This document shows positions 2,747 through 21,193 of a stretch of DNA of 64,000 nt, piece by piece. The stretch lies in contig NZ_AP022586.1 of NCBI RefSeq assembly GCF_010731695.1, positions 3,472,001 to 3,536,000 on the forward strand, given 5' to 3'. The position numbers were made by a program, and so were the translations under genes. This DNA is from Mycolicibacterium litorale. GTDB taxonomy: Bacteria > Actinomycetota > Actinomycetes > Mycobacteriales > Mycobacteriaceae. The notes beneath the pieces were generated by a model. It did no database searches. It was not told the origin of the DNA and saw nothing but the letters and a program-made list of their open reading frames with translations. Numbering within the stretch: position 1 is the stretch's first letter; every line of letters begins with the position of its first letter.

Positions 2747-2909
2747 GATCAACGCCGCATACCCAGAATGCCCGTCGCCTATCGGACCCCACCGTTTCAA
2801 CGCATCTGTCCCACGCGGCCGCCGGATGCCAGGTTCGAGGCATAGCGTGTAGGACCTGCTGGTCGTGCGATGCCCGCCGACCCATTGCGCCCGACCGAGA
2901 GGATGCCGA

Positions 2910-4883: not shown

Positions 4884-4905
4884 GTTGAGGGCGTATGACC
4901 CCTCC

Positions 4906-5970
4906 TCAGCGCCGGGTTTCGATCTGGAGGTCACCGGCGGTCACCTTCCGGATGTGGTCACTGGCGAGCATGTCGTGGGGGTAGCCGAGTTCGATCGCAC
5001 TGGCCTGATTGAGCCGCTCCACTTGGGAGTCGGCCAGGTCGACCTCCAGCGCGCCGAGATTCTCTTCCACCTGCGCGGGGGTGCGGGCGCCGATGACCGG
5101 TGCCGTCACGTCCGGATTCCGCAGGACCCAGGCCAGCCCCACCTGGGCGGGAGTGTAGCCCAGCTCCGTGGCGACTTCCTTCACGACGTCGGCGATGGCG
5201 AGGTTACGTTCGGTGACCGTGCCTAAGGCGACGTTGAAGCTCCCGCGGGTGCTGCCCTCGGACGCGAGGCTGGTTGCGGTGAGATCGGCGCGGCTGTACT
5301 TGCCCGTGAGAATCCCGCCGGCCAGCGGTGAGTACGGAGTCACCCCAAGACCCATCTCGCGCGCCATCGGGATCAAGTCACGTTCCCCGGTACGTTCGAT
5401 CAGGCTGTGCTCGATCTGCAGCGCGACCAACGGCGACCAGCCGCGAAGATCAGCGATCGTCTGCAGACGTGACACCTGCCAGGCTGGGGCGTTGGAGACC
5501 CCCACGTACAGAACCTTGCCCTGCCGCACCAGATCGTCCAAGCCACGCAGGATCTCCTCGGCCGGGGTCGAGAAATCCCACACGTGCAGGAAGAGCAGGT
5601 CGATGTAGTCGGTGCGCAACTGCCGCAGACTGGCTTCGACCGATGCGAACAGACTCTTGCGGGATGAACCCCCGGAGTTCGGATTGCCGGGATGACGCAG
5701 TGTCGTGTATTTGGTCGCCAGCACCAGGTTTTCGCGGATATCCCGAGTGAATTCACCGAGCAGACGCTCAGAGCTTCCGTTGGTGTAGGTCGCGGCAGTG
5801 TCGATGAAGTTTCCGCCGCGGTCGACGTAAAAGTCAAACACCTCGCGGGCTTCGTCCCGATCGACGCCCCAGCCCCAATCGGTGCCGAAGGTGGCGGTGC
5901 CCAGTGCCAGCGGCGAGACCCGCACTCCGGAGCGGCCCAGTAACCGGTAGGTGTCCAAAGTGAGCGACAT
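4906..5970 (-). CDS. Aldo/keto reductase
   Basis: A 354-residue NAD(P)H-dependent oxidoreductase with an (alpha/beta)8 barrel. The catalytic tetrad can be seen: Asp and Tyr in NFIDTAATYTNGSSE, Lys in LATKYT and His in LLFLHVWD. The C-terminal cofactor-binding stretch WVLRNPDVTAPVIGARTPAQ is also present. The start ATG 5970 follows a strong AGGAGGAC ribosome site. Substrate unknown. It is divergent from the XRE regulator across a 115-base gap, the usual arrangement for a reductase controlled by its neighbour. Confidence 0.9.
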   Translation of the reverse strand: MSLTLDTYRLLGRSGVRVSPLALGTATFGTDWGWGVDRDEAREVFDFYVDRGGNFIDTAATYTNGSSERLLGEFTRDIRENLVLATKYTTLRHPGNPNSGGSSRKSLFASVEASLRQLRTDYIDLLFLHVWDFSTPAEEILRGLDDLVRQGKVLYVGVSNAPAWQVSRLQTIADLRGWSPLVALQIEHSLIERTGERDLIPMAREMGLGVTPYSPLAGGILTGKYSRADLTATSLASEGSTRGSFNVALGTVTERNLAIADVVKEVATELGYTPAQVGLAWVLRNPDVTAPVIGARTPAQVEENLGALEVDLADSQVERLNQASAIELGYPHDMLASDHIRKVTAGDLQIETRR

Positions 5971-6085
5971 GTGTCCTCCTGTGATTGTGATGTGCCGTCC
6001 TCACCAGGTTGTCGCCGCCGCACACCGCAGGTAAGGGAAAGAACTTCCTGGGAACACCAGTCCCACTCAGCTCGTTGCATCGTCA

Positions 6086-6919
6086 ATGGCAAGCCCTTCG
6101 GTGGATACGACTCAGGAGCTCGCCGCGTTTCTGCGGACCCGACGCGAGCGCCTGGATCCGGATGATTTCCGACTGCCAACCCGTCGCACGGCCCGGCGGA
6201 CCCCTGGCTTGCGCCGCGAAGAGGTCGCCGAACTCGCCGGGGTAAGCATCGACTACATCGTGCGACTGGAGCAGGGACGCGGATTGCGGCCCTCAGCGGA
6301 CGTGGTGGAGGCGTTGTCCCGGGCGCTGCGCCTCAACTTCGACGAACGGTCCTATCTGTTCGACCTGGCCCGGCAGCGGCCGCGCACCACTGACAAGCCC
6401 GCCACCACGGCAGTGGCGCCTTTGGCGCAGCTGGTCGACGACCTGTCGCCCATGCCGGCGATGCTGATGAACCACCGCTTCGACATTCTGGCATGGAACG
6501 ACGAGATGGCGCGGCTGCTGGTCGATTTCGGCACTCTGCCGCCGGCACAGCGCAATTCGATATGGCTGTGCCTGATGCATCCGGAGATTCGCGAGTTCTA
6601 TGTCGACCGTGAGCGGGTGTTGCGGGAAGGAGTCGCGCACCTGCGTTCGGCGTGGGCCGCGCACCCGAAAGATCAGGTGTTGACCGACCTCATCACCGAG
6701 TTGACCGGCTCCCACAAAGAATTCGCGCGCATGTGGGCACAGCAAGACGTCAAGATCAACGGTCGCGGGCAGAAGGTGATGCGGCATCCCGACGTCGGCG
6801 AGATCGCCGTCCACTTCGAGGTTTTCATGCCGCTGCAAGACACCGATCAGCGGTTGATGATCTGCCGCGCCGCCGACGAGTCGAGCAAGTCCGCACTGAA
6901 ACGGCTATGGGCTCAGTGA
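6086..6919 (+). CDS. XRE-family regulator with MmyB-like ligand domain
   Basis: A 277-residue transcription factor. Residues 10-80 form a Cro/C1-type helix-turn-helix (RREEVAELAGVSIDYIVRLEQ), followed by the MmyB-like ligand-sensing region (PAMLMNHRFDILAWNDEMARLL onwards, a PAS-like fold). This architecture is common in actinobacteria, often next to an oxidoreductase the regulator controls. Here the divergent neighbour is the aldo/keto reductase, so it probably represses that gene and itself through the 5971-6085 gap. I see no long palindrome there, only a short GGAA/TTCC pair around 6036-6048. Confidence 0.88.
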   Translation: MASPSVDTTQELAAFLRTRRERLDPDDFRLPTRRTARRTPGLRREEVAELAGVSIDYIVRLEQGRGLRPSADVVEALSRALRLNFDERSYLFDLARQRPRTTDKPATTAVAPLAQLVDDLSPMPAMLMNHRFDILAWNDEMARLLVDFGTLPPAQRNSIWLCLMHPEIREFYVDRERVLREGVAHLRSAWAAHPKDQVLTDLITELTGSHKEFARMWAQQDVKINGRGQKVMRHPDVGEIAVHFEVFMPLQDTDQRLMICRAADESSKSALKRLWAQ

Positions 6920-6996
6920 CGGCCCCGGGTGCGACCTGAGGACTCCCTCGACGGCGGCCCGGACCCAGCGGGTTTTCTAGATCCTTCGCATCTAAC

Positions 6997-7170
6997 GCGA
7001 TCATGCCGGTGCTCGACCTGATGCAGAACGCGTTCGGATTTCTGAGGGCGCCGGGCGCTTCGGAAAATGCGTTGGCCCGCAGCGCAAGACGCGCTGATCT
7101 CACGCTGGCCACGGGGGTGTTCGGCGAATCGTTGGACTGGTCACTGATCGGACTGGGTGCTTTGGCAACT
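6997..7170 (+). pseudogene. Fragment of an OPT transporter gene
   Basis: About 57 codons here match residues encoded near 4292-4465 of the intact OPT gene. AFGFLRAPGASENAL here corresponds to AFGFLGAPGASENAL there, then GVFGESLDWSLIGLGA to GVFGGSLDWGLICLGA. The nucleotide match is also clear over the first 80 bases, with one codon lost. Nothing of the rest of the gene is present. It lies between the XRE regulator and the toxin locus and is a decayed remnant with no expected product. The rest of the 6920-7211 gap shows nothing else. Confidence 0.7.
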
Positions 7171-7211
7171 GCCACATCCGATATGGCAGCCCTCCGCCCA
7201 CCGGTATCCGC

Positions 7212-7511
7212 TTATTGCGCCCGCCCATCCCTGTTTGTAGCGGGGCTCGGTGCGCGTCTTTGATGTAACGCGGCGAAAGACTCCTTGGGAGTCCTGCGGC
7301 CGGTATCCCAAACGTCGAGTGCCTCTTCGAGGCTTATATAGGAGGCGAAGAACAGAACTGATAGATCCGGTCCGACAAGAACTGTTCCTACGCCGCGTAT
7401 GTCGCTGGAAACGCGGATGATGCCATCGCGGACGTCGTACGCACGGCTGGCCGCCACCTCAGGATCGAGGTTCAGACACTCTGCCGCTACAGCAATCTGA
7501 TCTTTATTCAC
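7212..7511 (-). CDS. Probable immunity protein for the Tox-PL toxin
   Basis: A 99-residue soluble protein that I do not recognise by sequence. It begins with GTG at 7511, whose last bases overlap the TGA of the toxin gene (GTGA), so it is translationally coupled to it. A small unrelated gene directly behind the C-terminal toxin domain is the usual position of the cognate immunity gene in polymorphic toxin loci. The function is inferred from position and size only. Confidence 0.6.
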   Translation of the reverse strand: MNKDQIAVAAECLNLDPEVAASRAYDVRDGIIRVSSDIRGVGTVLVGPDLSVLFFASYISLEEALDVWDTGRRTPKESFAALHQRRAPSPATNRDGRAQ

Positions 7512-9475
7512 TTAGGCACCCCCATATCCCAGACAGTGACCGGCCCATTCGGGAGGTCCATATTGGGTGGCCAACCAACGATCTGTCCCGTCTGTCCGTC
7601 GACGGCATAGACACGCGACCCATCGTAATACGCGTTGAACCAATGGCCCGCGAATCCATTGGCTCTGTCCACGCCGACAACGGTATGCGCACCCGGTCCC
7701 TGGCTCACCAAGTACTGCTCGATTTCTGCTGGTGTCGCCGGTTCTTGCCGCAAGCCTGTCGCGGCTTCCATCTCAGGTACCGACAGAGTTCCAAGCCCAG
7801 CCGATGCATCAGGGACGTTACCGGTCAGCCGTTGGTCGACGGCTAACGCGCACTGACCACAATTTACCGCTCGTGCTGGATCGAACGGGTCCATATCAGG
7901 CCCACGGTTGATCTCCGGAAGCCATTGTTGGATATCGCTGATCGACTGCGGTGCGGAAGGGCCAATCGCGTCGGGGTAATCGAACCCATCGGGTGTCGGC
8001 GTAATCGGGTGATCACTGCCTCGCGGCAGACCTTGGTTCTCTACGGCGAATGGGGTGTGAGGAGCGACTGGCGGCACCATTTCTTGCTGTGCCGGAAACG
8101 ACGCTGGGCTATGGGGGGTTCTTGGAGTGTCAATGACTTCGTGGGGGATCCCGCTGCGGGCCACGTCATCGAGCGCGCTGAGCCGTGATGCGGCTGCCCC
8201 TTCCAGGCCGAACGGCAGCGTGGCGGCCGCGGCACCGGATTCGAAGGTTTTACCGCCAAGCCAGTATTCAGGGTTGTCTTGTAAGGCTTCGGCGTTTTCA
8301 GCGACTGACCGAGCAGTGGTGCCGTATGGGTCCATCGCGGTTTCCGCGAGACTGCCGCCGAGGTTCTTCCAAGCCTCTTTGAGAGGATCCCATCCGTTCC
8401 GCCCGGTCAGGTCGCGCACGGACTCCTCGGCGCTGCGCCAAGCGTCGCCGAATCCCTCCCCGAACCCCGGCTTGGGCGGTGGCGGCCCATCCGGTGGCGT
8501 GTAGGGCACGAGCGGCTTCTGAGCATTAGCCACCATGTCGTTGAGGCGCTGTTCGATCTGGTCAGCTGGGACGCCCTGCTGCTCCATGAGCCTGCGGGCA
8601 GTCGCCTTGAATTCCTCGACCTTGGCTGGGTCCAGGCGCGGCCCCTGAGCAGTAGGCGCCGGCTGTCCAGCTACCTCGTCAAGCGCCTCGTCGAGGTTGC
8701 GGGGCTGGCCGGGGTCGGTGGTCTTTGCCGGAACTAGCACCTCGTCCAGCGGGGACTTCGCGGTGTCTTCGGCAGGATCGGTGCCGGCCGGAGTACCGGA
8801 CGCGGCGTCTTTCGGGGTTTCCGGTGGCAGTAGGAGATCTCGCCATCCTCGTTGGTCGGCGTCGGATCCGGAAGCGTCGGTCCTATGGTCCACTAGTCGG
8901 ATCGTCGGGTCGCCGTCACGTCCATCGGTTTCGCCGTCGAACCGCATCTCTTTCAGCTCAGTGGCTTTCGCTTCCAGGTGCGCGCCGACGTGCGCGTCTG
9001 CTTGGGTAAGGCGTTCAGCTGCCCAACGGATGTCCTCGGCATGCTCTGCCGCCGCGATTTGGCGAGCCGCGGCGGTGTCCGAGTCGTAGGCACGGGTATC
9101 GGTGATCGACAGGTCTTCTGCGACCTCGAAGCCGTCGCTCTCTGCGGCTTCGATCGCGGCGAGGGCCTCCCGCTTGGCGGCGTCGATGTCGGTCACACCG
9201 TTCTCGGCCCGCCCTGCGGCCTCCCTCAACACGCCGCTCTGGCTACCGACGACGGCGATGTCGCTGGCCACCCGGGCAAGTGCTGCGTCTTTCGCGTCGC
9301 CCTCCCATAGGGTCCCGCCCGGGGAGACGATGTTTTGCCGGTGCTGATCGAATGCGTCATCGGAGGATGCCGCCGCGGCCCTCCACTGCGCAGCCCCGTC
9401 GGCAAGATGCTTAGTACTCCACTGCTCGATCTGGGAACGAGACGGTAGATCGGCGGCGGAAGCCGCAGGACTCAC
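7508..9475 (-). CDS. ESX-exported polymorphic toxin, C-terminal Tox-PL domain
   Basis: A protein of about 655 residues starting at GTG 9475, which overlaps the stop of the small upstream ESX-like gene (GTGA). The N-terminal 190 residues are helical with a central WEGDAKDAAL (WxG-type) motif, as in type VII secretion substrates. A long Pro/Asp/Glu-rich middle follows, then a helical segment around 490-520. The last 120 residues match the papain-fold toxin (Tox-PL, glutamine deamidase-like) pattern: NCGQCA (Cys539, Cys542), GHWFN (His611) and VDGQTG (Asp626), a Cys-His-Asp triad. Expected to deamidate or cleave a target-cell protein after export. The domain assignment is by motif; export and activity are inferred. 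Confidence 0.8.
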   Translation of the reverse strand: MSPAASAADLPSRSQIEQWSTKHLADGAAQWRAAAASSDDAFDQHRQNIVSPGGTLWEGDAKDAALARVASDIAVVGSQSGVLREAAGRAENGVTDIDAAKREALAAIEAAESDGFEVAEDLSITDTRAYDSDTAAARQIAAAEHAEDIRWAAERLTQADAHVGAHLEAKATELKEMRFDGETDGRDGDPTIRLVDHRTDASGSDADQRGWRDLLLPPETPKDAASGTPAGTDPAEDTAKSPLDEVLVPAKTTDPGQPRNLDEALDEVAGQPAPTAQGPRLDPAKVEEFKATARRLMEQQGVPADQIEQRLNDMVANAQKPLVPYTPPDGPPPPKPGFGEGFGDAWRSAEESVRDLTGRNGWDPLKEAWKNLGGSLAETAMDPYGTTARSVAENAEALQDNPEYWLGGKTFESGAAAATLPFGLEGAAASRLSALDDVARSGIPHEVIDTPRTPHSPASFPAQQEMVPPVAPHTPFAVENQGLPRGSDHPITPTPDGFDYPDAIGPSAPQSISDIQQWLPEINRGPDMDPFDPARAVNCGQCALAVDQRLTGNVPDASAGLGTLSVPEMEAATGLRQEPATPAEIEQYLVSQGPGAHTVVGVDRANGFAGHWFNAYYDGSRVYAVDGQTGQIVGWPPNMDLPNGPVTVWDMGVPK

Positions 9476-9750
9476 ACCGACACCGTGGTGATCGCGTCCG
9501 AGCTGGAGGAGTCGGTCCCCTCGTATTTGGCACCGCTCACCGATAGGTCGCCCGCCTGGTCGGTGATGCGGCTGGACTGGCGGCTCTGAAGAGAGGTAAG
9601 GGCCGCGTTCATTGCGGCGACCCCGGCGCCGCTGGGCTGGGCGACCGTGATCCCGCCGGAATCCGCGCCGACCAGCAACGATGCGACGGCACCGCTGGCG
9701 GCTGCGGCGACACGCAGCCCGTTCGCGTCGACTTGCAATTCGTTTGCCAT
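9472..9750 (-). CDS. Small ESX-type (WXG100/EspC-like) protein
   Basis: A 92-residue alanine/serine-rich protein, probably helical and without membrane segments, with start ATG 9750 (MANELQVDANGLR). It has no clear WxG, but its length, composition and position directly before an ESX toxin gene fit the small partner or chaperone proteins (EspC/DUF2580-like) that pair with large type VII substrates. The stop overlaps the GTG of the toxin gene, so the three genes down to 7212 form one operon. Confidence 0.6.
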   Translation of the reverse strand: MANELQVDANGLRVAAAASGAVASLLVGADSGGITVAQPSGAGVAAMNAALTSLQSRQSSRITDQAGDLSVSGAKYEGTDSSSSDAITTVSV

Positions 9751-10319
9751 GCCAACCCCCAATTGGCGATTCCGTTTGCTGGAAGGATACCGCAGGGCTG
9801 GCATGCGCAATACGCTCGATGCGAGCGAGCGGGTCCGGTTGGATCTCAGGTGTGTCCCGGGTACGAGTCTTGGTGAGTTGCCACCGACGAGCCGACTGCT
9901 GAGGCGCGCACACGAGGTGGAGGTGCTACGTCGAGCATGACGAACCGAAACAGGCTGGTGGCCTCCACCTCGAGGACGTCCTGGACAATACTGAGAGAGC
10001 GGCACAGTTGCCTTCCGGCTCGACGCCATGCTGATCCCGCAGCATCCCGTATACCAACCCCTCTGCCTGGCAACGGGGCACTGATACGTCCTAGGAGACC
10101 TGGCCTTCCCGGATATCGTCGGCCTCAAATGGCTCACGCGCACGAACCGGCGTTACACCGACGCCGACGAGGATGATCTCGGCAACATCGACATCTTGAG
10201 CCTGGAGGGGGCCGCGTTCACCGTCGAGGGCGATCGGGGACGCGTTCGCGTCGTGTCGGCGAAGCCCATCATAAAATTGAGCGACCAGGAGGCCGTTCGG
10301 CCTTTGGCGAAGGAGTGCG
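9751..10319. other. Intergenic region, possible remnant of a + strand gene
   Basis: A 569-base gap upstream of the Tox-PL operon, which should hold its promoter. From 10085 to about 10312 the + strand frame is open and protein-like (GNIDILSLEGAAFTVEGD), but it lacks a convincing start and runs into the opposing membrane-protein gene, so it may be a decayed fragment. On the minus strand a TTG-started 78-codon frame (10091-10327) overlaps the stop of the 101-residue membrane gene, but its composition looks antisense. I call neither a gene. Confidence 0.35.
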
Positions 10320-10955: not shown

Positions 10956-12416
10956 TCAAACGGGAGTCACGCCCGGGGGCAAGGGAATCGACGGAACGTG
11001 CGGTGGATCACCGGGGGCCCCGAACTCAGTCCACGGCAATGGGATCGGTACATCGTAATCAGGATTCCACCCTCCAGAATCGAATGGTGCAAAGGCGCTG
11101 CCGCCCGCCCCGATGTCGTGGTGCTGTGGGAGATTCACCATCGGTCCGGTGGAGTTACCGGCGATCGCCGGATCGATGAGCACCGTCCGAGTCGAGCCAT
11201 CGGGGAAGTTCTGATACACCTCCATGGAGGGATAGTCGGTCCGTGTCCCGTCGACACGCACGCCGTCGGCGGTGGGAGTGAAGACGAGATCACCATTGAC
11301 GGTCCACGGGTTGTTCTCCATCGGCCAGGGCGGGTCCTTGGCGATGTCAGGAGCGAAGGGATTGGCGGCCTCGTATTTGATGCGGACCGCCCCGTCATCG
11401 GTCTGTTGCACCACGGCTTCTGGTATCCCGACCTTGACCTGCCCGGGTCCGCCGTCGGGAGTGAGTTCGACGGAGGGGTTCTGCCGCATCACGACGAGAC
11501 CGTTCTCGTAGTCAATGTAGGTCGTCACCTTCGTGTTGGCAGGGTCGAAGTTCGGGTCAGCAGGCCTGATGTTCCCGAAGTCTCGCTTCCACGGTCCGCT
11601 GATCACATCCCGCTGTTCGATCCATTGGCCCACCCGAACGACTCCTTGACCGGGCACCGGACGGATCTTCACAACCCTGACTTCGGGCGGTACGCCGTCG
11701 GTGTCGGGATCGTAGCTGTGCGGATCGAGGGCCGCTGCGGTCTGCCAGTCAGTTGCTGACGATGGACCGCGACCGAAGATTTCGCTGAACGCATCGATCT
11801 GATTCTGGCGGCGGTTGGCGAGATCCTCGGCCTGCCCAGAAGGTGTCTGCTTGAAGTCGACGGTTCGAATGGTCGGGTCATGCTCGCTCTTCTCCTCGGC
11901 GGGCGCCTTCTCCCCTTTGCCTCCACCTACTCCGAGCCGTGCGTACTCGTTGCCGACCTGCCGAAGCTTTGCGCCGACGGCGTTCAGCTCGTTGTTCGAG
12001 GTCGACACGACCTCGCCGATCCGGGCAACACCCGTCTGCACGATCGGCACCAGCTTTGGCTCGTGCCTGGGACCGGCCGGTACAGACTGCGCCGCGGCGA
12101 GCACCCAGGATTTGATCGAGTCAAGGTTCTGCCGGCCCGTTGACACCACCTGCGCCGACTCCGTGATGTGCAAGCCAAGCCGCTTGTCGAGGCCCGCCAG
12201 CTGCGCGATCACGTGGGCGTGCTCTGCGTTCTTACCGCCGTAGGCGGTGGCCGCCTCGCCCGACCAGTATGGGCCGGGAGCTGCCGTATGGGCTGTCGCT
12301 CCGAGAGCCTGCAAGTGGCCGCTTTGGTCGAACGCATCCCCTGTCTCCGGCACCCCTGCTCCGAAGGTGTCGCGCGCCCGCGACCATGCCACCAGGAAGG
12401 CGTCGAGCGCGCTCAC
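10956..12416 (-). CDS. Large ESX-type secreted protein with unknown C-terminal domain
   Basis: A protein of about 486 residues. The first 170 residues are helical with a YWSGEAATAY motif at the expected turn, like the N-terminal domains of type VII secretion substrates. A charged, Gly-rich linker follows (GGGKGEKAPAEEKSEHD). The last 270 residues are rich in Val, Thr, Pro and Asp, with patterns suggesting beta structure (VTTYIDYENGLVVMRQNPS). I do not recognise this domain, and no catalytic motif stands out. I chose GTG 12416 (MSALDAFLVAW); the frame is open for 23 more codons. It is divergent from the gene at 12590 and followed by two tiny membrane proteins. Confidence 0.65.
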   Translation of the reverse strand: MSALDAFLVAWSRARDTFGAGVPETGDAFDQSGHLQALGATAHTAAPGPYWSGEAATAYGGKNAEHAHVIAQLAGLDKRLGLHITESAQVVSTGRQNLDSIKSWVLAAAQSVPAGPRHEPKLVPIVQTGVARIGEVVSTSNNELNAVGAKLRQVGNEYARLGVGGGKGEKAPAEEKSEHDPTIRTVDFKQTPSGQAEDLANRRQNQIDAFSEIFGRGPSSATDWQTAAALDPHSYDPDTDGVPPEVRVVKIRPVPGQGVVRVGQWIEQRDVISGPWKRDFGNIRPADPNFDPANTKVTTYIDYENGLVVMRQNPSVELTPDGGPGQVKVGIPEAVVQQTDDGAVRIKYEAANPFAPDIAKDPPWPMENNPWTVNGDLVFTPTADGVRVDGTRTDYPSMEVYQNFPDGSTRTVLIDPAIAGNSTGPMVNLPQHHDIGAGGSAFAPFDSGGWNPDYDVPIPLPWTEFGAPGDPPHVPSIPLPPGVTPV

Positions 12417-12589
12417 GCAATCCAGCGTATGCGCTGGGAGCTCCTCCCCCATGCACCAAACGCGCGTCGCGGGGAGATCGTGCATCCCCCGGACGATGTT
12501 TGCCTGGCGGGGAGGACCGGCAACTTAACACTGGAAGTGGATCCAGATGGCGGCGACACGGACTTGGCGGGCCACGCGAGAGGGCGACG

Positions 12590-13887
12590 ATGGCAGACGA
12601 AGAGCTCAACACCCCACCGGACGGGGCGGGCAACCTGCCCGCGACCTCCGAACCCACCCCCGGCGAGGTCGTGGTGTCCACGCAACCCGAAGGGCTCCTG
12701 GTCGGCGGTGACCCCGAGGCCGTCGAGGCCTACCTACAGCGGCTCACCGAGAACGCCGGATACGCCATCCAGGTCGTGGGGCTCGACAAGGTATCGCTGG
12801 GCAATGCGACCGGACTCGCCGCCAGTGCGGCGTCGATCCTCGGGCAATCCGCGAAGTTCGTGCAGCTACACCCCGACAGCATCAAGGCAGTGCGGAAGGG
12901 ACAGCTGATACCCGGGACGGACGGCTTCTTCCGCATGACAACTCGTGGTGCAGATAAGAAGTTCGTCAGCCAGTTGCAGTGGAAGCCGACGAACGTCAAC
13001 CCGGCCAAGCTCATGTCCGCGCAGATGCTCGCCGTGCAGATCGCGCTCAAGACGGCGATCAGCGAGGTCGAGGACCCGTCCAGCGCGTCGAGAACAAGGT
13101 CGAGGAAGTCCTGCGCCTCGCGCAGGCCACCCGCTCGGGTGATGTCCTCGGCGACCGCCTGTCGATCGAGCGCATGGTCAACTACCTCGACAAGCACGGG
13201 TCGTTCTCGGATACCGACTGGGATTGGATCTCGAGTGTCGGGCCGGGCCTGAACCGGACGGTCGAGCAGCTGCGCCAGCACGCCCTCGCCACGCTCAAGA
13301 CTTTCGACCCGTCACGACCGATCCAGGACCGCGCCGAGTTCGTCGTCAACGCGGTGGAGAACCAGCAGCTGGGCGAAACGCTGAGCCTGCTCGTCGTCGC
13401 CGAGGAGTCGCTGTTCCAGTGGCAGCGGCTGCGCATCGCCCGGGTGGAAGCGACCGAGCCACAACATCTTCAGAAGGTGCTCGACGACGCCCGCGAGCTG
13501 CTCGCCCACCAGATGGCCGCCGACGGAGAGCTGTACCGGCGGGCGCAGACCGTGCTCGACGCCGTCGCGAGAACCGAGGCGATCGACGGATTCCGCTTCT
13601 GGTCCGTCCAGGGGCTGACCCGAGACCTGCCCAAGCTGCGCGAGGACCTCGACCGCTTCGCCCACGCCCGTCGCGCGCAAGCCCTCGAGTGGTCGGAGAT
13701 CAACGCGCCCACCCCGAAGGAGGCGATCCAGGCCGCCGCCGACAAGGCTTCCGTTGCGGCGACGCAGGCACTCGAAGCCGCCACCGAGGGCTACACGGCG
13801 GTCAGCAACTTCTTCTCGAAGACGACGCGGGAAGGGTCGAAACTGTTCGGCAAGAGGCGATCCTGTGATCAGTCGGACGAGGAGTAG
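12590..13887 (+). pseudogene. Frameshifted hypothetical gene
   Basis: Two overlapping frames make one protein of about 430 residues. The first begins at ATG 12590 (MADEELNTPP) behind GAGAGGG and reads well to about 13075 (LKTAISEVED). The other frame continues without a gap (VQRVENKVEEVLRLAQ) to the stop at 13887. One base seems to be missing near 13073-13078, where GACCCGTCC would read through as GACGCCGTCC. The product is soluble and strongly helical, with probable coiled coil after the break and an alanine-rich helix before a basic tail. I do not recognise the family. It is either a recent loss of function or a sequencing error; the intact codon pattern on both sides favours a recent event or an error. 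Confidence 0.7.
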
Positions 13888-13894
13888 CCCGACC

Positions 13895-14656
13895 TCACGG
13901 CACGCTGCCGTGCCGGCACTGCACCGCCATCGGCGGCGCGTCGCCGAGCAGCGTCCCCAGCGGCGCAAGCGCACCGTCGTCGCGCAGGGCGACGACCGGC
14001 GGTAGCGACAGCCGCACCTCGACGATGGTCGCTCCTTCATCGGGCGCGGTCCGGCACCCGAACGCCACCCGCTCCCCCGCTCCCGTACCGAACGCCTCGT
14101 CGACGCGGTTGCGGACAGCGGTCAACGTCAGCCGGCCGCCGACCGCATCGCGCAGCACCGGATCGAGGACGGTACGTGCCTCATCGGTCAGGGCCGCCGC
14201 ATCGCCGAAGTAGGTGTCCGGCGCGACACCCGCACACGTGCCGTGGGCGTACCACTCGTGGTTCGTCAGCGACTGCGTGTTGACGGTGGCCGACTCCAGC
14301 CGGTCGCGGACGTGGTCGGACAACGGCACCGGCGGCAGCGCGGACTCGTGATCGTGAAACTGTTGTGGCACATCGCAATACTGGCGGTCGCGCGGCTGTG
14401 ACCACAGCCCGTGTAGCAGAAGCGTCTGCCCCGCCGAGGTGACCTCATCGGACCGGCATGCCGCGTTCTCCGGTTCGGCGGTGCAGAAGCTGGGCGCCCA
14501 GGTGAGGACCAGCCAGCTGGAGGCGGCGCCGTCGGAGACCAGTGCGGACGGGTTGGGCGTCTTGTCGAGGGCGGTGACGCTGTAGGTGACGGCGGCGACG
14601 ACGACCGTGGCCAGTGCTGCGGAAATCGACAATACGGCTACGTCGCCTCGCCGCAT
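13895..14656 (-). CDS. Ribonuclease T2 family protein, membrane-anchored or secreted
   Basis: A protein of about 253 residues. An N-terminal hydrophobic segment (about 6-28) acts as signal or anchor. Both RNase T2 active-site blocks are present: CAS I as LLLHGLW and CAS II as NHEWYAHGTCAG, each with its catalytic His. Cys residues near both blocks could form disulfides, as expected outside the cytoplasm. The enzyme cleaves single-stranded RNA through 2',3'-cyclic phosphates. I chose ATG 14656, preceded by AAAGGG; GTG 14671 in frame is an alternative. It is divergent from the membrane protein/RT operon. Confidence 0.85.
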   Translation of the reverse strand: MRRGDVAVLSISAALATVVVAAVTYSVTALDKTPNPSALVSDGAASSWLVLTWAPSFCTAEPENAACRSDEVTSAGQTLLLHGLWSQPRDRQYCDVPQQFHDHESALPPVPLSDHVRDRLESATVNTQSLTNHEWYAHGTCAGVAPDTYFGDAAALTDEARTVLDPVLRDAVGGRLTLTAVRNRVDEAFGTGAGERVAFGCRTAPDEGATIVEVRLSLPPVVALRDDGALAPLGTLLGDAPPMAVQCRHGSVP

Positions 14657-14765
14657 GGTGCACCCTTTCACCAGGGAGAGCAGCCATCAGCGCGCTGCAC
14701 GGCAACAGCGTCTCACAGCAATGCGCCGGCGTTGCCTGATCGCCGACGAAAGGTGCTGCGAACGT

Positions 14766-16859
14766 GTGGGCGTGGCCGGGTACCTTGCGGTGAACGACAT
14801 CGACCGCTGGTTCGCGCGCACCAGCCGCCGCGAGCACCGCACGGTGTCTCTGTACGGCTGCCTGCTGACCGGCAGGATGTTCGAGTACTTCCGCTACCGC
14901 CTGCGCTACGCGCTGCTCGTCGACGGCGCGACGTTCGTCGTCCACGTCGCCGAGTTCCTGATCATCCTCACCAGCCTCGGCGGGCTCGCGGCGTTCACGG
15001 TGATGATCCTGCGGGTCGGCAGCCTCATCGTCAGCGGCGCCTGGTGGGGACTGCTCGAGGTGATGCGCGAACGCGTGCGCGGACTTTCGTTGACCCGCGA
15101 CCGCGACGCCGTTGAGCGCGAGATCAGCAGCTGGCTGGTGCTGTCGCTGATCGTGGCGACGGCGGTGGCGGTCGCCGGCGCGGCGGTGGCGTTGTCACTG
15201 CTGCCCTCCACCGACGATCCGCTCGGACTGCTGTACGCGCTGCTGGTCGTCCTCGAGCTCGCGGTGCGAATGCCGGTGCGGGTCTTGCATTCCGGCATGT
15301 ACGCCACCCGGCGGATCTACCGGCCGCTGTGGACACTGTTCGCCCCGACCGCCGTACAGATCGTGGTCATCGGCGCCGGGGCGCTCTTCTACCCCACTGC
15401 CGCCGTGGTCGTCGCGATCATCGCCTCCAATGCGCTGTCGATCTGGATCACCGTCCACTTCGCGCTGCGCCTCTACCGACTCAACGGCGTCTCCCCGCGT
15501 CCCCGGACGGCGTCGCTGCGGGATCGGCTGCCGCGGTTCCCCGTCCGGCAGGGATTCGACGCCACGGTAGCCGGACTGGGTCTACGGCTCGACGCGATCG
15601 CCGTCCTCGCGATCGCCGGCATCTACGGCACCAGCACCCGGTCCTTCGACCTGACCGCCGGGTTCGAGGCGTGGCGCGACATCGACGCCTTCCAGTTCTT
15701 CTATTTGGTGCTGCCGCTGCTGCGCGGCGCCTACGAGTCGACGGCGGTCTTCTACTTCGATTTCGTTCGGCTGCGGCGCGTTCCGGCGCTGCGCGAGTAC
15801 CGGGTGCGGTTCTTCCACCGGCTGCTGATCGTCACGCCCGTGGTCACCCTGCACTTCTGGGGGCTCGCGGTGGTGCTGGGGCTGTTCGTGCTGCCCGGCA
15901 TCCCGTTCACGTTCCTGCTGGCGCTGCTGCCGCTGTTCATCGTGCGCAGCTTCATCGGCACCTACCAGGTGCGGTTGTTCGCCGAGGGGCAGTTCCGCGC
16001 GCTCAACATCACCATCGCGTTCTCGGCGGTGTTGTTCGCGCTGGTGTGGATCGACGTGAATCCCGCCTCGGATCTCCTCGAGCTCACCGCGGCGATGATC
16101 ACGCTGCTGATCGTGCACATCAATCTGCAACATCTCCGCGACCGCATCCCGCCCCCGCCGACCCAGTTGCCGCTCGGCGACTGGATCCGGGCGCTGGCCG
16201 CTGAACCGGGCCCGGTGCGCGCCGGGACGATCACCGTCCCGGAGTGGATTCCGGAGCGGCAGCGCGCCGCCGCGATCGATATGATACGGAAGACGTTGAC
16301 GGACAACGGATGTCTGGCGTTCTGTTCGGCGACGACGCTGGTGTTCTACACGCGCAGGGACATCGCGTGCGAGCCGCACCTCGAGGTGCAGACCGCCACC
16401 GGCGGCGCGGCCAATCGTGCTCAGTACTGGCGGGAGCCGGCCCCTGACGGACGTTCGGCGCTGGACCGCATCACGACGGCCCAGTGGCTCGCTCCGATTG
16501 CGGGTGTGCCGCAAGAGCCGCAGAGCCCGGAATGCCTCGCGCCGGAGTTCTTCGAGATCTTCCCCGACGGGGTGGTGGCCGCCCTGGACACCCGCGCGGG
16601 CGCGCAAGCCATGCGTGCGCTCGACGACGACCTGGTGCCGGCGATCCTGCCCGCGGCGATGAAGAGCCTCGACGACGACGCGTTGGTGGTGTCGGTGGCC
16701 GGGCGTTGGCTGTCGCCGATCTTCCACGAGAACAAGGTGCGGATGATCTTCCTGCTACCCCCGGATCCGGAGCCGGCGCAGTTCCAGCGTTGGCTGCGCA
16801 CGCTGCGGGCGTGGCGGCTCGGGCAGTGGGACCGGGAGGTCGCGGTCCATGGTGCTTGA
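14766..16859 (+). CDS. Large polytopic membrane protein, partner of the reverse transcriptase
   Basis: About 697 residues from GTG 14766. The true start is uncertain within 14721-14790; GAAAGG at 14748-14753 favours the later codons. The first 450 residues hold roughly 10-12 hydrophobic segments, spaced like an oligosaccharide-flippase/MATE-type exporter, though I see no diagnostic motif. The last 220 residues are soluble and acidic (from about TITVPEWIPERQRAAAID) and presumably cytoplasmic. The stop overlaps the RT start by 11 bases, so the two are translationally coupled and probably act together. I cannot assign a substrate or activity. The role may be to anchor the RT or be its effector; this is inference. 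Confidence 0.8.
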   Translation: MGVAGYLAVNDIDRWFARTSRREHRTVSLYGCLLTGRMFEYFRYRLRYALLVDGATFVVHVAEFLIILTSLGGLAAFTVMILRVGSLIVSGAWWGLLEVMRERVRGLSLTRDRDAVEREISSWLVLSLIVATAVAVAGAAVALSLLPSTDDPLGLLYALLVVLELAVRMPVRVLHSGMYATRRIYRPLWTLFAPTAVQIVVIGAGALFYPTAAVVVAIIASNALSIWITVHFALRLYRLNGVSPRPRTASLRDRLPRFPVRQGFDATVAGLGLRLDAIAVLAIAGIYGTSTRSFDLTAGFEAWRDIDAFQFFYLVLPLLRGAYESTAVFYFDFVRLRRVPALREYRVRFFHRLLIVTPVVTLHFWGLAVVLGLFVLPGIPFTFLLALLPLFIVRSFIGTYQVRLFAEGQFRALNITIAFSAVLFALVWIDVNPASDLLELTAAMITLLIVHINLQHLRDRIPPPPTQLPLGDWIRALAAEPGPVRAGTITVPEWIPERQRAAAIDMIRKTLTDNGCLAFCSATTLVFYTRRDIACEPHLEVQTATGGAANRAQYWREPAPDGRSALDRITTAQWLAPIAGVPQEPQSPECLAPEFFEIFPDGVVAALDTRAGAQAMRALDDDLVPAILPAAMKSLDDDALVVSVAGRWLSPIFHENKVRMIFLLPPDPEPAQFQRWLRTLRAWRLGQWDREVAVHGA

Positions 16860-18183
16860 GCCGGTCGACATCGACCAGTGCTTGGTCGACCCGGCGACCT
16901 ACGAGTCGACAATCCTGCGGATCTACGCCAAGCGCAACGAGCGGGGTATGGGGTTCCACGACGTCGCCGATGGCGTGACGTATTTCGATGCGGCCACCGA
17001 TCGAAAGGCGTTGTCCCGGGCCATCGCCGCGAGCATCGCCGAGGGCAGCTACGAGCCGCAGCCGGTCGATCTGTGGTTCCTGGAGACCAACGGCAAGCGC
17101 CGTGCGGCGCACATGCCGGGGTTCGTCGATCACATCGTGGGGTCGGCGTTGTTCAAGTTGCTGTCGCACAACGCCCGCTGCTACGGCCTGCCGGGCGTGT
17201 ACTCATATCTGCCGGGGGTGACGAACGTGGGCGCGATGCGGGCGTTCGCGGCGTTCATCCGTGACCACCGCGAACGGGTCGGACCGAGGGGCGGACCGGT
17301 GTACGTGCTGCAGTCCGACTTCGAGAAGTACGGCGACAATCTACCGGTCGGACCGGACGCCGCGCTGTGGAAGACCTTGCGGGAGGTGGCGTCGCTCGGC
17401 AACGGGCGTGGTGAGATCAGCGGTGGTGCATGGAATTTGATTACGGCACTGATCCGCCCGGTGGTGCGTGAGGAGGACGGTACCGAGTTCACCCGGCTCA
17501 ACGGGGTCGCGATGGGGACGCCACTGGTGCCGGTGCTCGGGAATCTGGCGGTGGTGCCGATGGACCGGGCGATCACCGATACCGACGGGGTGTTCTATGC
17601 CCGGTACAACGACGACTTCATGGTCGCCCATGGGGATCTCGCAGTGATCCACGAGGCGGACGCGCGGATCGACGGGTTGGTCGCGGAGCTGGGCGTCAAG
17701 CGGAAGCTGAGCAAGGAGTTGCGGACGGCGCTGTCGGTACACGGCCGGCCGTGCGAGGTTGACCCCGCCTACCGTGGCCGGGACCGGATCGACTGCCTGG
17801 GCATGTCCGTGACGGCTGTCGGGACGGTGACGCTGGGGCCACATCGGTTGCGTCGCTTCGTTGCCCGGATCGCGGCGCGGATCGATGCGGCGGCGCCGAC
17901 GTTGTCGGGGATGACGGCGCGGGAGCGGGCGGGCCATCTGGTTGCGGCGACGAATGTGATGCTGGATGTCAGCAGCCCGTTCGCGGTGGCCGGGTTGTCG
18001 GCACTGCTCGACACGGTGACGGATCGGGGGTCGCTGAAGGATCTGGATTACCGGATCGCGCGGAAGATCGCGCAGGCGGCGACGGGGACGCCGGGGGTGC
18101 GGGGGTTCCGGCAGTTGTCGCCGGAGGTGCTCTATCGGGAGATGGGTCTGGTGTCGTTGGTGGCGTTGCGGAATTCGCGGTGA
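16849..18183 (+). CDS. Stand-alone reverse transcriptase of unassigned group
   Basis: A 444-residue protein with the core RT motifs in order. RT1/2 region: YEPQPVDLW and TNGKRRAAHMPGFVDHIVGS (70-99). Motif A: LQSDFEKYGDNL (Asp157). Motif B: AMGTPLVPVLGNL (221-233), with Met-Gly where Gln-Gly is usual. Motif C: YARYNDDFMV (Asp255, Asp256). Motif D: GVKRKLSKE (282-290). Motif E-like: CLGMSVTAVG. All three polymerase Asp residues are intact. There is no maturase or HNH domain as in group II introns, no VTG motif as in retrons and no variable repeat as in DGRs. ATG 16849 has GGGAGG nine bases upstream and overlaps the membrane-protein gene. It probably belongs to the unknown-group/abortive-infection-type RTs often linked to phage defence; activity and template are unknown. 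Confidence 0.9.
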   Translation: MVLEPVDIDQCLVDPATYESTILRIYAKRNERGMGFHDVADGVTYFDAATDRKALSRAIAASIAEGSYEPQPVDLWFLETNGKRRAAHMPGFVDHIVGSALFKLLSHNARCYGLPGVYSYLPGVTNVGAMRAFAAFIRDHRERVGPRGGPVYVLQSDFEKYGDNLPVGPDAALWKTLREVASLGNGRGEISGGAWNLITALIRPVVREEDGTEFTRLNGVAMGTPLVPVLGNLAVVPMDRAITDTDGVFYARYNDDFMVAHGDLAVIHEADARIDGLVAELGVKRKLSKELRTALSVHGRPCEVDPAYRGRDRIDCLGMSVTAVGTVTLGPHRLRRFVARIAARIDAAAPTLSGMTARERAGHLVAATNVMLDVSSPFAVAGLSALLDTVTDRGSLKDLDYRIARKIAQAATGTPGVRGFRQLSPEVLYREMGLVSLVALRNSR

Positions 18184-18343
18184 TCTTGCGGATGTGCCTG
18201 TGGCGCGGTTAGGTTGAAGCTGGCGCGGATCCCGCACGTGTGCGGTCACTGCGAGAGGCCACAGAGGTTGCGGCTTTCGGTCTCTCTTTTTCGGCGTTTT
18301 TGCCCGCGCCTCTTACTTTGGGGTGCCTGAAGTCCGGCTCTCG
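18184..18343. other. Gap after the RT gene with T-rich tracts
   Basis: A 160-base gap between the RT stop and the convergent DUF3427 helicase remnant. It contains two T tracts (about 18286-18302) after a GAGAG...CTCTC pair (around 18251-18285) that could close a weak, imperfect hairpin. This may be a terminator for the RT operon or part of a small RNA. The pairing is too poor to claim either. Confidence 0.25.
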
Positions 18344-19782
18344 TCACGCCACGGCCGCCCTCGACGCGAGGTACACCTCCGTCGGCATGGGATGACGCAG
18401 GTGCCATGTGATGGCGATCGGCCGGTCGCCCTCGTGTGACACGTAGTCGGAGGGTCCGAGGAAGATGTACGGGGTTGGCCCCAATGCGTTCGTCTTGTTC
18501 TCCCGAACGAACAGCAAGATGTGTGAACCGCGTTCACGGTGTTGAAGGTACCGCTGACCGGTGGGCGACGCAGCCGAAGTAGTGGACTGCGACTCCCAGT
18601 GAAAGAGATCGCGGTTCAGCGCGTAGTCGCGGTACATCGTGGTCGGCGAGTAGTCGGTGTCGGTCTTTTTCAGCGTGATGAGGAAGGCGTCGGCGTTGAC
18701 CTGCGGACACCACGCGACTCCCTCCCTCATGGTGCTTGGTGAGCGCCCTTCTGCGGTCCACCCGAGTGCGGCGAGAATTTCTTCCCTCGAGTATCTCGCG
18801 TGCACCGCAAGCGGGACGTCGGCGAGGGCCGGGGCGAGCTCGACCAATGGCCGGGCAATGCGATGAGCGGCGCCGAAGGCGATGTCGATCACCTCACGCA
18901 TCTCGTCGATAACCGGTTCTCCGTCGAGAGCAGTCAAACCCGCTGCCGCATCGGTGAAGTCCCCGCCGTCGGGAAAGAGGCTGTAGAACAGCATCGCTAC
19001 GAAACGCTGCTCGGCTGAGCTCGTCAAGCGCTGCCCGTTGAGGAGCGCGGTGTAGGCGTCTCGACGAGTCTGATCGTCAAGGTGCGCTAGGGCCCGCACT
19101 CGTTTGACGAGACGTTGTTCCAGCGGCCCCTCAGGGGTTGTGAGCTTACCGGCGGTGCGACGCAACGACGTCCACGATTTGTCCTTCCGCAGGACGTCTT
19201 CCAAGCTGCGACCAGATGCATCCAGGAAGTTAGCGAGGTTGTCGTTGGGGTGCGCGCGCACTTCAGATACCAACGCCGCCCAGCGGGGCGTCACCTGCTG
19301 GCGGACGTTCTCGAGAACGAGGCGTTGGCAACGGCGTCGAGAATGATCTGGCTGCCGGACGGCAGGAATGGGAACCCGTGCTCGACCTGGCGCGCTAACT
19401 CTTTCCGACTGGCGCCCGTGAGCGCATGGAAGCGTTGATCGAACCGGAACTCGCGGCGCTGATGGCCGACAAAGTCGAGCGCGGTCAAGACTGCCTTTCC
19501 CCTCGTGAGGCGCAAGCCGCGGCCGAGTTGTTGCAAGAAGACTGTGGCGCTTTCGGTCGGCCGGAGAAACAGCACCGTGTCGACTTCGGGGATGTCTAGG
19601 CCTTCGTTGAAGAGGTCGACGGCGAAGATGATATTGATGTGGCGGTTCCGGAGTGCAGTTAGGGCGTCTTGCCGCTCCACCGCTGGAGCGTCAGCCGAAA
19701 CTGCCTGCGCCGGAATGCCGGCGGCAACGAATCGATCCGCCATGAAGCGGGCGTAAACAGCGCCTAAGTAAGTGCGATAGCG
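18344..19782 (-). pseudogene. 3' half of a DEAD/DEAH helicase with DUF3427 domain
   Basis: This holds the second RecA-like helicase lobe (NIIFAVDLFNEGLDIPEVD, then FLQQLGRGLR, motif VI) and the full DUF3427 C-terminal domain (to WHLRHPMPTEVYLASRAAVA). The first lobe with Walker A and DEAD/DEAH box is missing: coding similarity stops at YLGAVYARFMADRF, just inside a TAG at 19783-19785. A single-base frameshift near 19315 also splits the remainder into frames 19743-19291 and 19294-18344. Such helicases are typical of defence islands and often work with a PLD nuclease. The 5' part was apparently lost where the methyltransferase gene now begins. Confidence 0.85.
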
Positions 19783-19873
19783 CTACACGGTCACAGCTCT
19801 CGGATTGCCGTCTCATCGGGCAACCGGCCGTGCCGGATCGGGAGTGTCGGAAACTTGTCCTAGACTCAGGCCC

Positions 19874-21193
19874 GTGACTTGTCAGCCGATCGAGAAGGCG
19901 CCGGCGGCTCTGCGGCCTATTCACTATCTGGGCAACAAAAGCCGGTTTCTTCCATACATCGAATCTGCGGTTACAGATGTACGAAGAACCGACGGCGTCG
20001 CAGTCGACTTGTTCTCCGGGTCTGGAGTGGTAAGCCGCGCATTGGCGACGAGTCATGCAGTGATGGCTGTCGATATCCAGGCCTACTCAGAGGTGCTTGT
20101 CGGAGCGCTCACCCGCCCAGCCGCCTTCGACGATTCGCTCCTGGAAGCGATCACGGCCGGCGTGTCCGAACGTCTCAGTGGACTCCCCAAGGCGATTTGG
20201 GACTTGATTGACTATGAACAGCAGGCCCTCGACGCGGCCGATACGGGTCAATTGGCACATCTTCTGGAGACGGGCTCGCTTATTGCCGGTCGGCCATCCG
20301 GCTCAGCCTTCGAAGATGTCCATCGACGAGCCCGTCAGTCGGTCGAGCAACTAGGCAGCGGGCACATCATGCTGCGTTACTACGGTGGCGTATATTTTTC
20401 TTATCGCCAGGCTGTCGAACTCGATGCGATCGTCGCAATTGTTCGTGCCCTAACTGATGATCTCCGGACTACGGGCCTTGCCGCAGTCCTCGGCACAGCG
20501 AGTGATGTAACCTCGACCGTTGGCAATCATTTCGCTCAGCCCATCCGGCCGCGGGATCGCGACGGTCGTTTGAAGAATGGGTGGTCAGCCCGAATCTGCA
20601 AAAGCCGGTTAATGTCGGCAGTAGACGGGTTCAAACTATGGGTTGTGCGGTACCGAGGACTTTCGCACACCCCGTACGCATGTACGTCGGTCCGAGGCGA
20701 TTATCGAAATGTGTTGGCACGACTGCAAGAAGGCGACGTGGGTGTCGTTTACGCCGACCCGCCGTATACACGCGATCACTACAGCCGCTTTTACCACGTA
20801 CTTGAGACGCTCGCCCTAGGGGACGATCCCGGAGTCAGCGTGATCCCAGGTACGTCAGATGAGCCCAGCCGCGGGCTATACAGAGTGCAGCGGCACCAGT
20901 CTCCGTTCAGCATCCGCTCAGAGGTTTTGCCGGCATTTTCCCAGCTGTTCGGGCACTGCAAGCGCCTCGGCGCCCCGCTTGTCTTATCCTATTCACCCAC
21001 CGGAGCTGGGACCAAGGCGCGACCGCAGCCACGACTATTGACGGTGCCGCAACTCATTGACCTCGCTAAAGGGTACTTTGGGAACGTTACGGTCAGCGGC
21101 ACCGATCGAATTGCCCATAGCAAACTGAACAGGCGCCATTTCAACAGCGAGATCGATTACGATGCCGAGATACTCATCATCGCGCAACCGTAA
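19874..21193 (+). CDS. D12-class DNA adenine-N6 methyltransferase
   Basis: A protein of about 439 residues from GTG 19874 (MTCQPIEKAPAALRPIHYLG). The order is that of Dam-like class alpha enzymes: LGNKSRFLPYI (motif X), VDLFSGSGVVSRAL (motif I, SAM binding), a long variable target-recognition region, then VVYADPPYTRDHYSRFYHVLETL's DPPY motif IV. It methylates adenine N6. With the beta-class methyltransferase at 22282 and the PLD nuclease at 21209 it probably completes one restriction-modification system, each methylase protecting one strand of an asymmetric site. Base composition is clearly less GC-rich than in the flanks. Confidence 0.85.
   Translation: MTCQPIEKAPAALRPIHYLGNKSRFLPYIESAVTDVRRTDGVAVDLFSGSGVVSRALATSHAVMAVDIQAYSEVLVGALTRPAAFDDSLLEAITAGVSERLSGLPKAIWDLIDYEQQALDAADTGQLAHLLETGSLIAGRPSGSAFEDVHRRARQSVEQLGSGHIMLRYYGGVYFSYRQAVELDAIVAIVRALTDDLRTTGLAAVLGTASDVTSTVGNHFAQPIRPRDRDGRLKNGWSARICKSRLMSAVDGFKLWVVRYRGLSHTPYACTSVRGDYRNVLARLQEGDVGVVYADPPYTRDHYSRFYHVLETLALGDDPGVSVIPGTSDEPSRGLYRVQRHQSPFSIRSEVLPAFSQLFGHCKRLGAPLVLSYSPTGAGTKARPQPRLLTVPQLIDLAKGYFGNVTVSGTDRIAHSKLNRRHFNSEIDYDAEILIIAQP

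Follow-up and report, generated by a model that had tools for sequence, protein, structure and literature searches.

A 64,000-nucleotide stretch of the Mycolicibacterium litorale genome (NCBI RefSeq assembly GCF_010731695.1, contig NZ_AP022586.1, positions 3,472,001 to 3,536,000 of the forward strand; hereafter the window) contains a gene for a reverse transcriptase (RT). Comparative sequence analysis indicated that this RT belongs to a mycobacterial unit of four parts, made up of an exported RNase T2, a membrane protein with a MOP fold, the RT itself and a structured RNA of about 96 nt. A preliminary description of the locus had proposed a two-gene system consisting of the RT and the membrane protein; this proved too narrow, since co-inheritance and conservation tie the divergent RNase T2 and the RNA to the same unit. 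Genome comparison places the unit in some mycobacteria and in at least one unrelated alphaproteobacterium, and apparently no earlier description of it is known. We assign a probability of about 0.5 to the reading that an RT-RNA particle acts at the membrane, together with the exported RNase, to give abortive infection.

Composition and co-inheritance of the unit

Co-occurrence of the parts was counted in 198 Mycobacterium genomes. Strong matches to the RT (E<=6.3e-145) were found in 21 of them, and the membrane protein was present in exactly the same 21; separate inheritance of the two genes, which the preliminary description had named as a refuting outcome, did not occur. Weak RT matches in five genomes (E 8e-6 to 1e-3, 21-34% identity) were judged to be other RTs and left uncounted. 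RNase T2 homologs were detected in 25 genomes, namely all 21 with the RT, where the gene adjoined the membrane gene each time, and 4 without it. Hypergeometric probabilities for co-occurrence were 9e-29 (RT with membrane gene) and 1e-24, related genomes being non-independent draws. Gene order and orientation were identical at each of the 12 named loci taken from the genome collection, of which 11 are mycobacterial and one is alphaproteobacterial, and each holds all three genes.

A larger sample gave the RT in 44/396 Mycobacterium genomes at 46 loci, with two loci each in genomes G506 and G655 (8% contamination). At 25 additional loci the membrane gene was found in 24 and the RNase T2 in 22, and the three incomplete loci end at contig edges. 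Distances between the genes correlated with an r of 0.89-0.95 (23-24 loci), and dN/dS values of 0.12-0.35, calculated for the window against three relatives per gene, indicated purifying selection on all three. In G506 (contig C1), loci L111 and L113 are two full four-part units about 62 kb apart, whose RTs are 92% and 87% identical to that of the window.

The surroundings of the unit were far less constant than the unit itself. No flanking gene family occurred at more than 7 of 33 loci, versus 28-30 of 33 for the three unit genes; the simple gene caller used in this comparison overlooked some RNase T2 copies, which were recovered by tblastn. Three of the 4 genomes with an RNase T2 but no RT were compared with intact loci (G156, G098 and G106). 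In each, the RNase T2 lies amid genes that flank intact units elsewhere, its catalytic motifs are intact, and the RT and membrane genes have both been lost. Genome G153 holds a decayed copy of the unit, with a truncated RT, a split RNase T2 and the RNA present only as a weak 26-bit match.

The RNase T2 gene occupies 13895-14671 on the minus strand and was assigned by Pfam (Ribonuclease_T2, 55.2 bits versus a cut-off of 26), hydrophobicity, motifs and adjacency. An N-terminal hydrophobic stretch (residues 7-38) would act as a signal or anchor, and the catalytic domain is predicted to lie outside the cytoplasm. The window protein carries the motifs HGLW and HEWxxHGTC, and unbroken relatives keep HGLW and HEWxxHG[TSV]C. 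In its catalytic motifs and predicted export it resembles RNase T2 enzymes such as E. coli RNase I, whereas its score on the RNase I model is weak (26.5 bits of 436) and, unlike those enzymes, it is genetically tied to an RT. The preliminary description had rightly named a divergent RNase T2 beside the operon, and its presence in 21/21 RT-containing genomes makes it part of the unit as well. A divergent intergenic region (14672-14789) separates it from the membrane gene; at most other loci this gap measures about 8 to 210 bp, and at locus L098 about 650 bp.

The membrane gene ends at 16859 on the plus strand. Its start, first placed at a GTG at 14766, is more likely to be at 14790, because relatives begin with M-N-D-I-D-R-W; the upstream GTG is still a possible start. 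The AlphaFold2 model of the product (mean pLDDT 84) contains 12 long helices followed by a soluble C-terminal domain, in line with the 10-12 helices and soluble domain originally proposed. Structural matches to MATE, WzxE and MurJ covered residues 26-465, so the model supports a 12-transmembrane protein of the MATE/Wzx/MurJ-type MOP superfamily and fits the earlier wording "flippase-like". According to secondary structure and topology prediction, the C-terminal domain (16161-16856, plus strand; about residues 466-697 counted from 14766) is cytoplasmic. Sequence comparison did not reveal this kinship: Pfam (up to E 1), NCBIfam (up to E 0.01) and PADLOC (up to E 0.1) gave no match, nor did a search of the PDB with the sequence profile. 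The protein differs from the MATE, WzxE and MurJ transporters in this respect and in its extra cytoplasmic domain.

Lineage of the reverse transcriptase

The RT gene (16849-18183, plus strand) encodes 444 amino acids and was identified by the PADLOC generic RT model (2.3e-14), an AlphaFold2 model with a pLDDT of 94, Foldseek and phylogeny. It overlaps the end of the membrane gene by 11 bases (16849-16859, plus strand), as had been reported; the translational coupling read from this overlap is possible. The enzyme appears complete, as first described: the catalytic residues D157, D255 and D256 were each found in 50/50 aligned relatives, and the last two lie in the YNDD motif (residues 253-256; 17605-17616, plus strand). 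The Met-Gly of motif B, also pointed out earlier, is a trait of the core family, in which a few members have Thr or Leu. Close to the C-terminus, Ser436 (codon 18154-18156, plus strand) is a serine in 49/50 relatives and a gap in the remaining one. No tyrosine beyond residue 250 was conserved in >=90% of the 50 aligned rows.

Profile searches indicated that the RT lies outside the modelled classes of unknown-group (UG) RTs, defence-associated RTs (DRT), retrons and group II introns. The other refuting outcome named in the preliminary description, placement inside a described DRT class with the same membrane partner, was thus not observed among the modelled classes. Its highest PADLOC score was 51.5 bits on the generic RT model, followed by 44.4 on Drt9 (the best class model), 40.3 on a Cas1-RT model, 36.1 on UG4, 25.3 on UG26 and 20.9 on UG17/DRT10. 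RTs of known UG classes from related genomes scored far higher, with 336-784 bits for five of them on their own models, and six retron-type RTs in the scan reached 384-585 bits on the PADLOC retron models. The window RT stayed below 20 bits on the PADLOC retron models, and reached 25 bits on the NCBIfam retron St85 model, which has a cut-off of 235, and 42.7 bits on the group II intron model TIGR04416 (NCBIfam), with a cut-off of 300. Foldseek placed the AlphaFold2 model about equally close to the GsI-IIC RT (E 4e-15) and to DRT9 (E 5e-15).

A tree built from 43 RTs united the core family in a single clade (100/100) with a group of about 30% identity as its sister (96/95), and placed it on the UG side (96/85), apart from the group II and retron RTs; the tree contained only four UG classes, some of them long-branched, and no DRT2, DRT3, DRT9 or DRT10. 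Within this sampling, phylogeny and models agree with the earlier statement that nothing points to a group II intron or a retron. Group II intron and CRISPR-RT identities were both dropped, since the class models and the tree disagree with them. Nothing in the locus suggested a diversity-generating retroelement, for which no dedicated model was used. The retron RT motifs NAxxH and VTG are absent from the window RT and scattered among its relatives (6/50 and 7/50, respectively). A search of the class matched 8/296 genomes; two were Mycobacterium with the window-type RT and six were weak (E 4e-8 to 1e-4), and the four of these six that were scanned contained group-II-like or UG5 RTs. The related group of about 30% identity (P0275-P0287, available as proteins only) has mostly YSDD-type motifs and includes a member from a Verrucomicrobiae metagenome-assembled genome (MAG). 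Proteobacterial relatives (P0242-P0247) were likewise covered as proteins only.

The nearest numbered group may be UG26: 25/25 RTs of set A1 matched its model at E<=1e-3, the best of them at 2.4e-31, and scores of 82-84 bits were obtained for the distant relatives P0275 and P0286. The RT could be a far relative of such a numbered group, or an uncharacterised member of one of the rare UG groups of the census for which PADLOC has no model; the tree, in which it stands on the UG side, agrees with either. The main UG/Abi RT census is reportedly that of Mestre et al. 2022. We consider this explanation unlikely, given the low scores of the window RT itself on UG26 and on Drt9. A literature search at the level of titles and abstracts, covering RTs with RNase T2, flippase or MATE proteins and DRTs in Mycobacterium, likewise returned no such unit; the lists of the main UG census were not compared.

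A structured RNA linked to the unit

An alignment of ten loci behind the RT revealed a stretch of about 96 nt conserved far above its flanks. In the window it begins 34 nt past the RT stop and corresponds to a structured noncoding RNA (ncRNA) at 18218-18313 on the plus strand, as judged by conservation, a covariance model and covariation. The RNAalifold consensus consists of a closing helix (18222-18228/18304-18310) enclosing two hairpins, a first one (18232-18235/18242-18245) and a larger one (18253-18259/18280-18286) with an inner stem (18264-18268/18273-18277), all on the plus strand. A U-rich linker (18287-18303, plus strand) connects the large hairpin with the closing helix; it is unpaired in the consensus, contains 7-13 U in 13-17 nt among 46 distinct RNA sequences and is a candidate template. 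Rfam gave no match up to E 1 for positions 12000-20000 of the window.

A covariance model of 23 sequences matched 20 of the 21 genomes with the RT (E<=6.4e-19), the exception being the decayed G153. As 17 of the 20 matched genomes had supplied model sequences, the 198-genome scan mainly tests absence elsewhere. Loci outside the model (L013, L098-L100 and 21 of L110-L134) were matched in 25/25 cases, L013 with 48 bits and the rest with at least 88.9 bits. Altogether the model matched 52/53 sources, equal to 48/49 different loci when the duplicate contigs L002/L112, L006/L115, L007/L116 and L011/L110 are counted once. Elsewhere in the 198 genomes, the model matched a single degenerate copy standing alone in G018 (E 3e-8) and, by chance, sequences in G059 and G061 (E 0.003 and 0.006). 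The latter two were rejected as false positives inside long open reading frames (ORFs), which we take to resemble NADH dehydrogenase subunits. The lone copy (G018:C46:21118-21213, identical with L095:8119-8214, minus strand; 48.5 bits) sits amid unrelated genes with no RT, membrane protein or RNase T2 match within 16 kb, and a normal copy is present at another place in that genome. Two low-scoring matches were left uncounted as chance or remnant, one of 26 bits (E 4e-4) with four broken pairs in L087, a decayed copy, and a weak one of 19 bits in L101 (E 0.03). Viral-contig matches to a 19-base motif of the RNA were chance-like, with a best model score of 14.8 bits.

The fold of the RNA is supported by covariation in the aligned sequences. 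Across the 46 distinct sequences, 98.5% of the cells were paired and two-sided changes occurred in 12/23 pairs, a level reached in 0/500 shuffles; when the pairing partners were slid, pairing fell to 47-56%. That alignment was fitted to the model, and an unfitted alignment of 23 sequences gave a weaker but similar signal (98.4% paired, 5 pairs with two-sided changes). The excess of G-U pairs (143) over A-C mismatches (9) favours the strand of the RT.

A TANNNT box preceded the RNA at 21/48 loci, compared with a mean of 5.9 and a maximum of 14 over 300 shuffles. On this enrichment the RNA may have its own promoter, for which TTGCGG, 18 nt and TAGGTT at 18186-18215 (plus strand) are a possible candidate. 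A scan with the sigma-70 consensus before the RNA found no promoter.

The alphaproteobacterial locus L013 (unit at 1871-7960), from a MAG, has an RT of 44% identity, a membrane protein of 32% identity and two RNase T2 genes. The preliminary description had regarded a flippase-like RT partner in a mycobacterium as new; the partner accompanies the RT in every sampled genome, but this MAG shows that the arrangement is not confined to mycobacteria. The tandem RNase T2 genes (1871-2740 and 2979-3809) are 31% identical to each other. A model built without L013 found a single match there, at 2814-2908 (48 bits, E 9e-10), and this RNA lies upstream, between the two RNase T2 genes, instead of following the RT. 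Folded singly, it took the same shape as in mycobacteria (z -3.1). Because L013 has all the parts with the RNA in another place, the RNA would not be merely a 3' element of the RT mRNA, and its linkage to the unit appears independent of position.

An RNA with a closing stem next to an RT and a membrane protein also recalls a retron, in which case the RNA would be the msr-msd, the closing stem the a1/a2 pair and the membrane protein the effector. Retrons with membrane effectors exist, and the present unit shares with them an RT, a structured RNA and a membrane protein. The RT, unlike theirs, fails the retron models and branches elsewhere, it has neither of the two retron motifs, and in mycobacteria the RNA stands behind the RT. 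We regard a retron-like identity as highly improbable.

Proposed mechanism and relation to known systems

The RT is likely to bind the 96-nt RNA. A short stretch, most plausibly the U-rich linker by the large hairpin, would then serve as an iterative template and yield A-rich or short-repeat DNA; copying of this particular linker is a tentative proposal, held at somewhat less than even odds. Synthesis would perhaps be primed on the conserved C-terminal serine of the RT, as in Class 2 DRT systems. With less certainty, the RT-RNA-DNA particle would dock on the membrane protein at its cytoplasmic C-terminal domain and gate it. A trigger such as a phage would alter the DNA product, whereupon the membrane protein would let stored RNase T2 reach RNA, or harm the cell otherwise, resulting in abortive infection. 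The step in which the triggered membrane protein releases RNase T2 onto RNA is speculative and we think it doubtful. Equally unlikely, in our estimate, is its wider form, in which cDNA on a small RNA is the gating ligand of a flippase-fold protein whose opening joins a stored RNase to RNA, giving a two-compartment nuclease toxin. Storage of the nuclease outside the cytoplasm would account for the lack of a visible antitoxin and for the ability of the RNase T2 to persist alone.

A role of the unit in anti-phage defence is plausible. As would fit an accessory system of defence, the unit is patchily distributed, its flanks change from locus to locus and it has been lost repeatedly. The restriction-modification genes that had been taken as a defence setting are real neighbours at the window locus, but the defence setting is weak, as they were not seen beside the other loci compared and no flanking family exceeded the frequency given above.

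Several observations weigh against an RT-RNA particle causing abortive infection. When 101 flanking proteins from 19 loci were scanned (one 2102-residue ORF of the 102 chosen was left out), 32 PADLOC families gave matches, and each of the 25 listed among them matched a single protein (E<=1e-20), a figure that comes with no control set; the loci are thus not clearly in defence islands. At the sensitivity used, plasmid, phage and viral-contig records yielded no close relative of the RT. Folded singly, the window RNA shows no unusual stability (z -1.1), whereas z is -2.2 for its reverse strand. The repeat pattern of the linker is mostly accounted for by its U-richness, and helix 3 followed by a run of U5 resembles an intrinsic terminator. 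Direct repeats are present that could form an A-B-A' template of the DRT10 kind, but in many sequences this pattern is not significant. Among the database records set aside, seven on plasmids were other RTs (group II- or Cas1-annotated or unannotated) with <27% identity over <=61% of the query, and one unannotated phage record was a weak match to another RT (27.6% identity).

The terminator-like run could mean that the operon simply ends here in a terminator or a 3' regulatory element, and that the RT acts without an RNA partner. In L013, though, the element stands upstream between the RNase T2 genes, the closing helix beyond the U run is still kept (98.8% paired), and the nearly invariant sequence of the hairpin loop is unneeded for a terminator. 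We regard this account as very unlikely.

A function in the envelope or in physiology, with no part in defence, was also weighed. Here the MOP protein would move a lipid-linked or small substrate, the RNase T2 would handle extracellular RNA and the RT with its RNA would regulate the transporter. The MATE-, WzxE- and MurJ-like fold, the missing plasmid, phage and viral-contig copies, the lack of a clear defence-island context and the correlated gene distances speak for such a function, whereas the patchy distribution, differing flanks and joint loss of the RT and membrane genes suggest an accessory system. We judge it somewhat unlikely and retain the membrane-acting RT-RNA particle as the best reading.

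Two other features of the window deserve mention. The gene at 7508-9913 (minus strand) has a C-terminal papain-fold toxin/glutamine deamidase domain (Pfam Gln_amidase, 29.4 bits, cut-off 24.1), and 10956-12485 (minus strand) encodes an EspA/EspE-family protein (76 bits); together they look like a type VII secretion-linked toxin locus. At 18344-19743 (minus strand), two abutting ORFs, one for DUF3427 and one for a helicase C-terminal domain, together resemble the C-terminal half of a type IV restriction-like enzyme, the front part being absent from the ORF list.

The closest functional parallels are the Class 2 DRT systems, in which, according to excerpts of three reports, a cis-encoded RNA with a short template gives rise to repetitive DNA (PMC12483538, PMC12632851, PMC13174585). 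As excerpted, DRT10 comprises a UG17 RT, an ncRNA and a SLATT protein and makes tandem-repeat DNA; it depends on the SLATT membrane protein and on a priming serine at the C-terminus, and the 137-nt RNA has its candidate template beside a stable stem-loop (PMC12632851). To the extent of that account, the present unit is alike in that its RT comes with a small structured RNA encoded in cis and with a membrane protein, in the place of the candidate template by a stable stem-loop and in the conserved serine near the RT C-terminus, so that Ser436 is, by analogy, a candidate protein primer. It is unlike DRT10 in the low UG17 score of its RT, in its 12-transmembrane MOP-fold partner, which had no SLATT match within the Pfam and PADLOC limits given above, in the added exported RNase T2, in the shorter RNA of about 96 nt and in the mycobacterial position of that RNA behind the RT.

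In DRT9, a UG28 RT with an ncRNA, poly-dA is made on a U tract and SLATT is only sometimes present, as the excerpt of the report has it (PMC12483538). The best class-specific PADLOC match, the similar fold and the U-rich stretch in the RNA resemble this system, whereas the score on the Drt9 model is low and there is no conserved C-terminal tyrosine, the priming residue of DRT9. DRT3 has two RTs and, downstream of the RT gene, a cis ncRNA whose short-repeat template is ACACAC, as far as its report was excerpted (PMC13174585); the mycobacterial RNA is likewise downstream of the RT gene, but the present unit has one RT, plus a transporter-like protein and an RNase.

RTs that copy an RNA and work with membrane proteins, such as DRT10 and some DRT9, are recent additions, and the way in which their DNA acts on the effector is an open question on which the present unit bears. 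Its RT is of a different lineage, its RNA has no Rfam match, its membrane protein has a transporter fold, its RNase is exported, and members of two phyla carry it. It may provide an independent case for the control of membrane proteins by cDNA, with a direct readout because the substrate of the RNase, RNA, is known. For mycobacteria, it would be an RT-ncRNA system of which the title and abstract search mentioned above showed no description.

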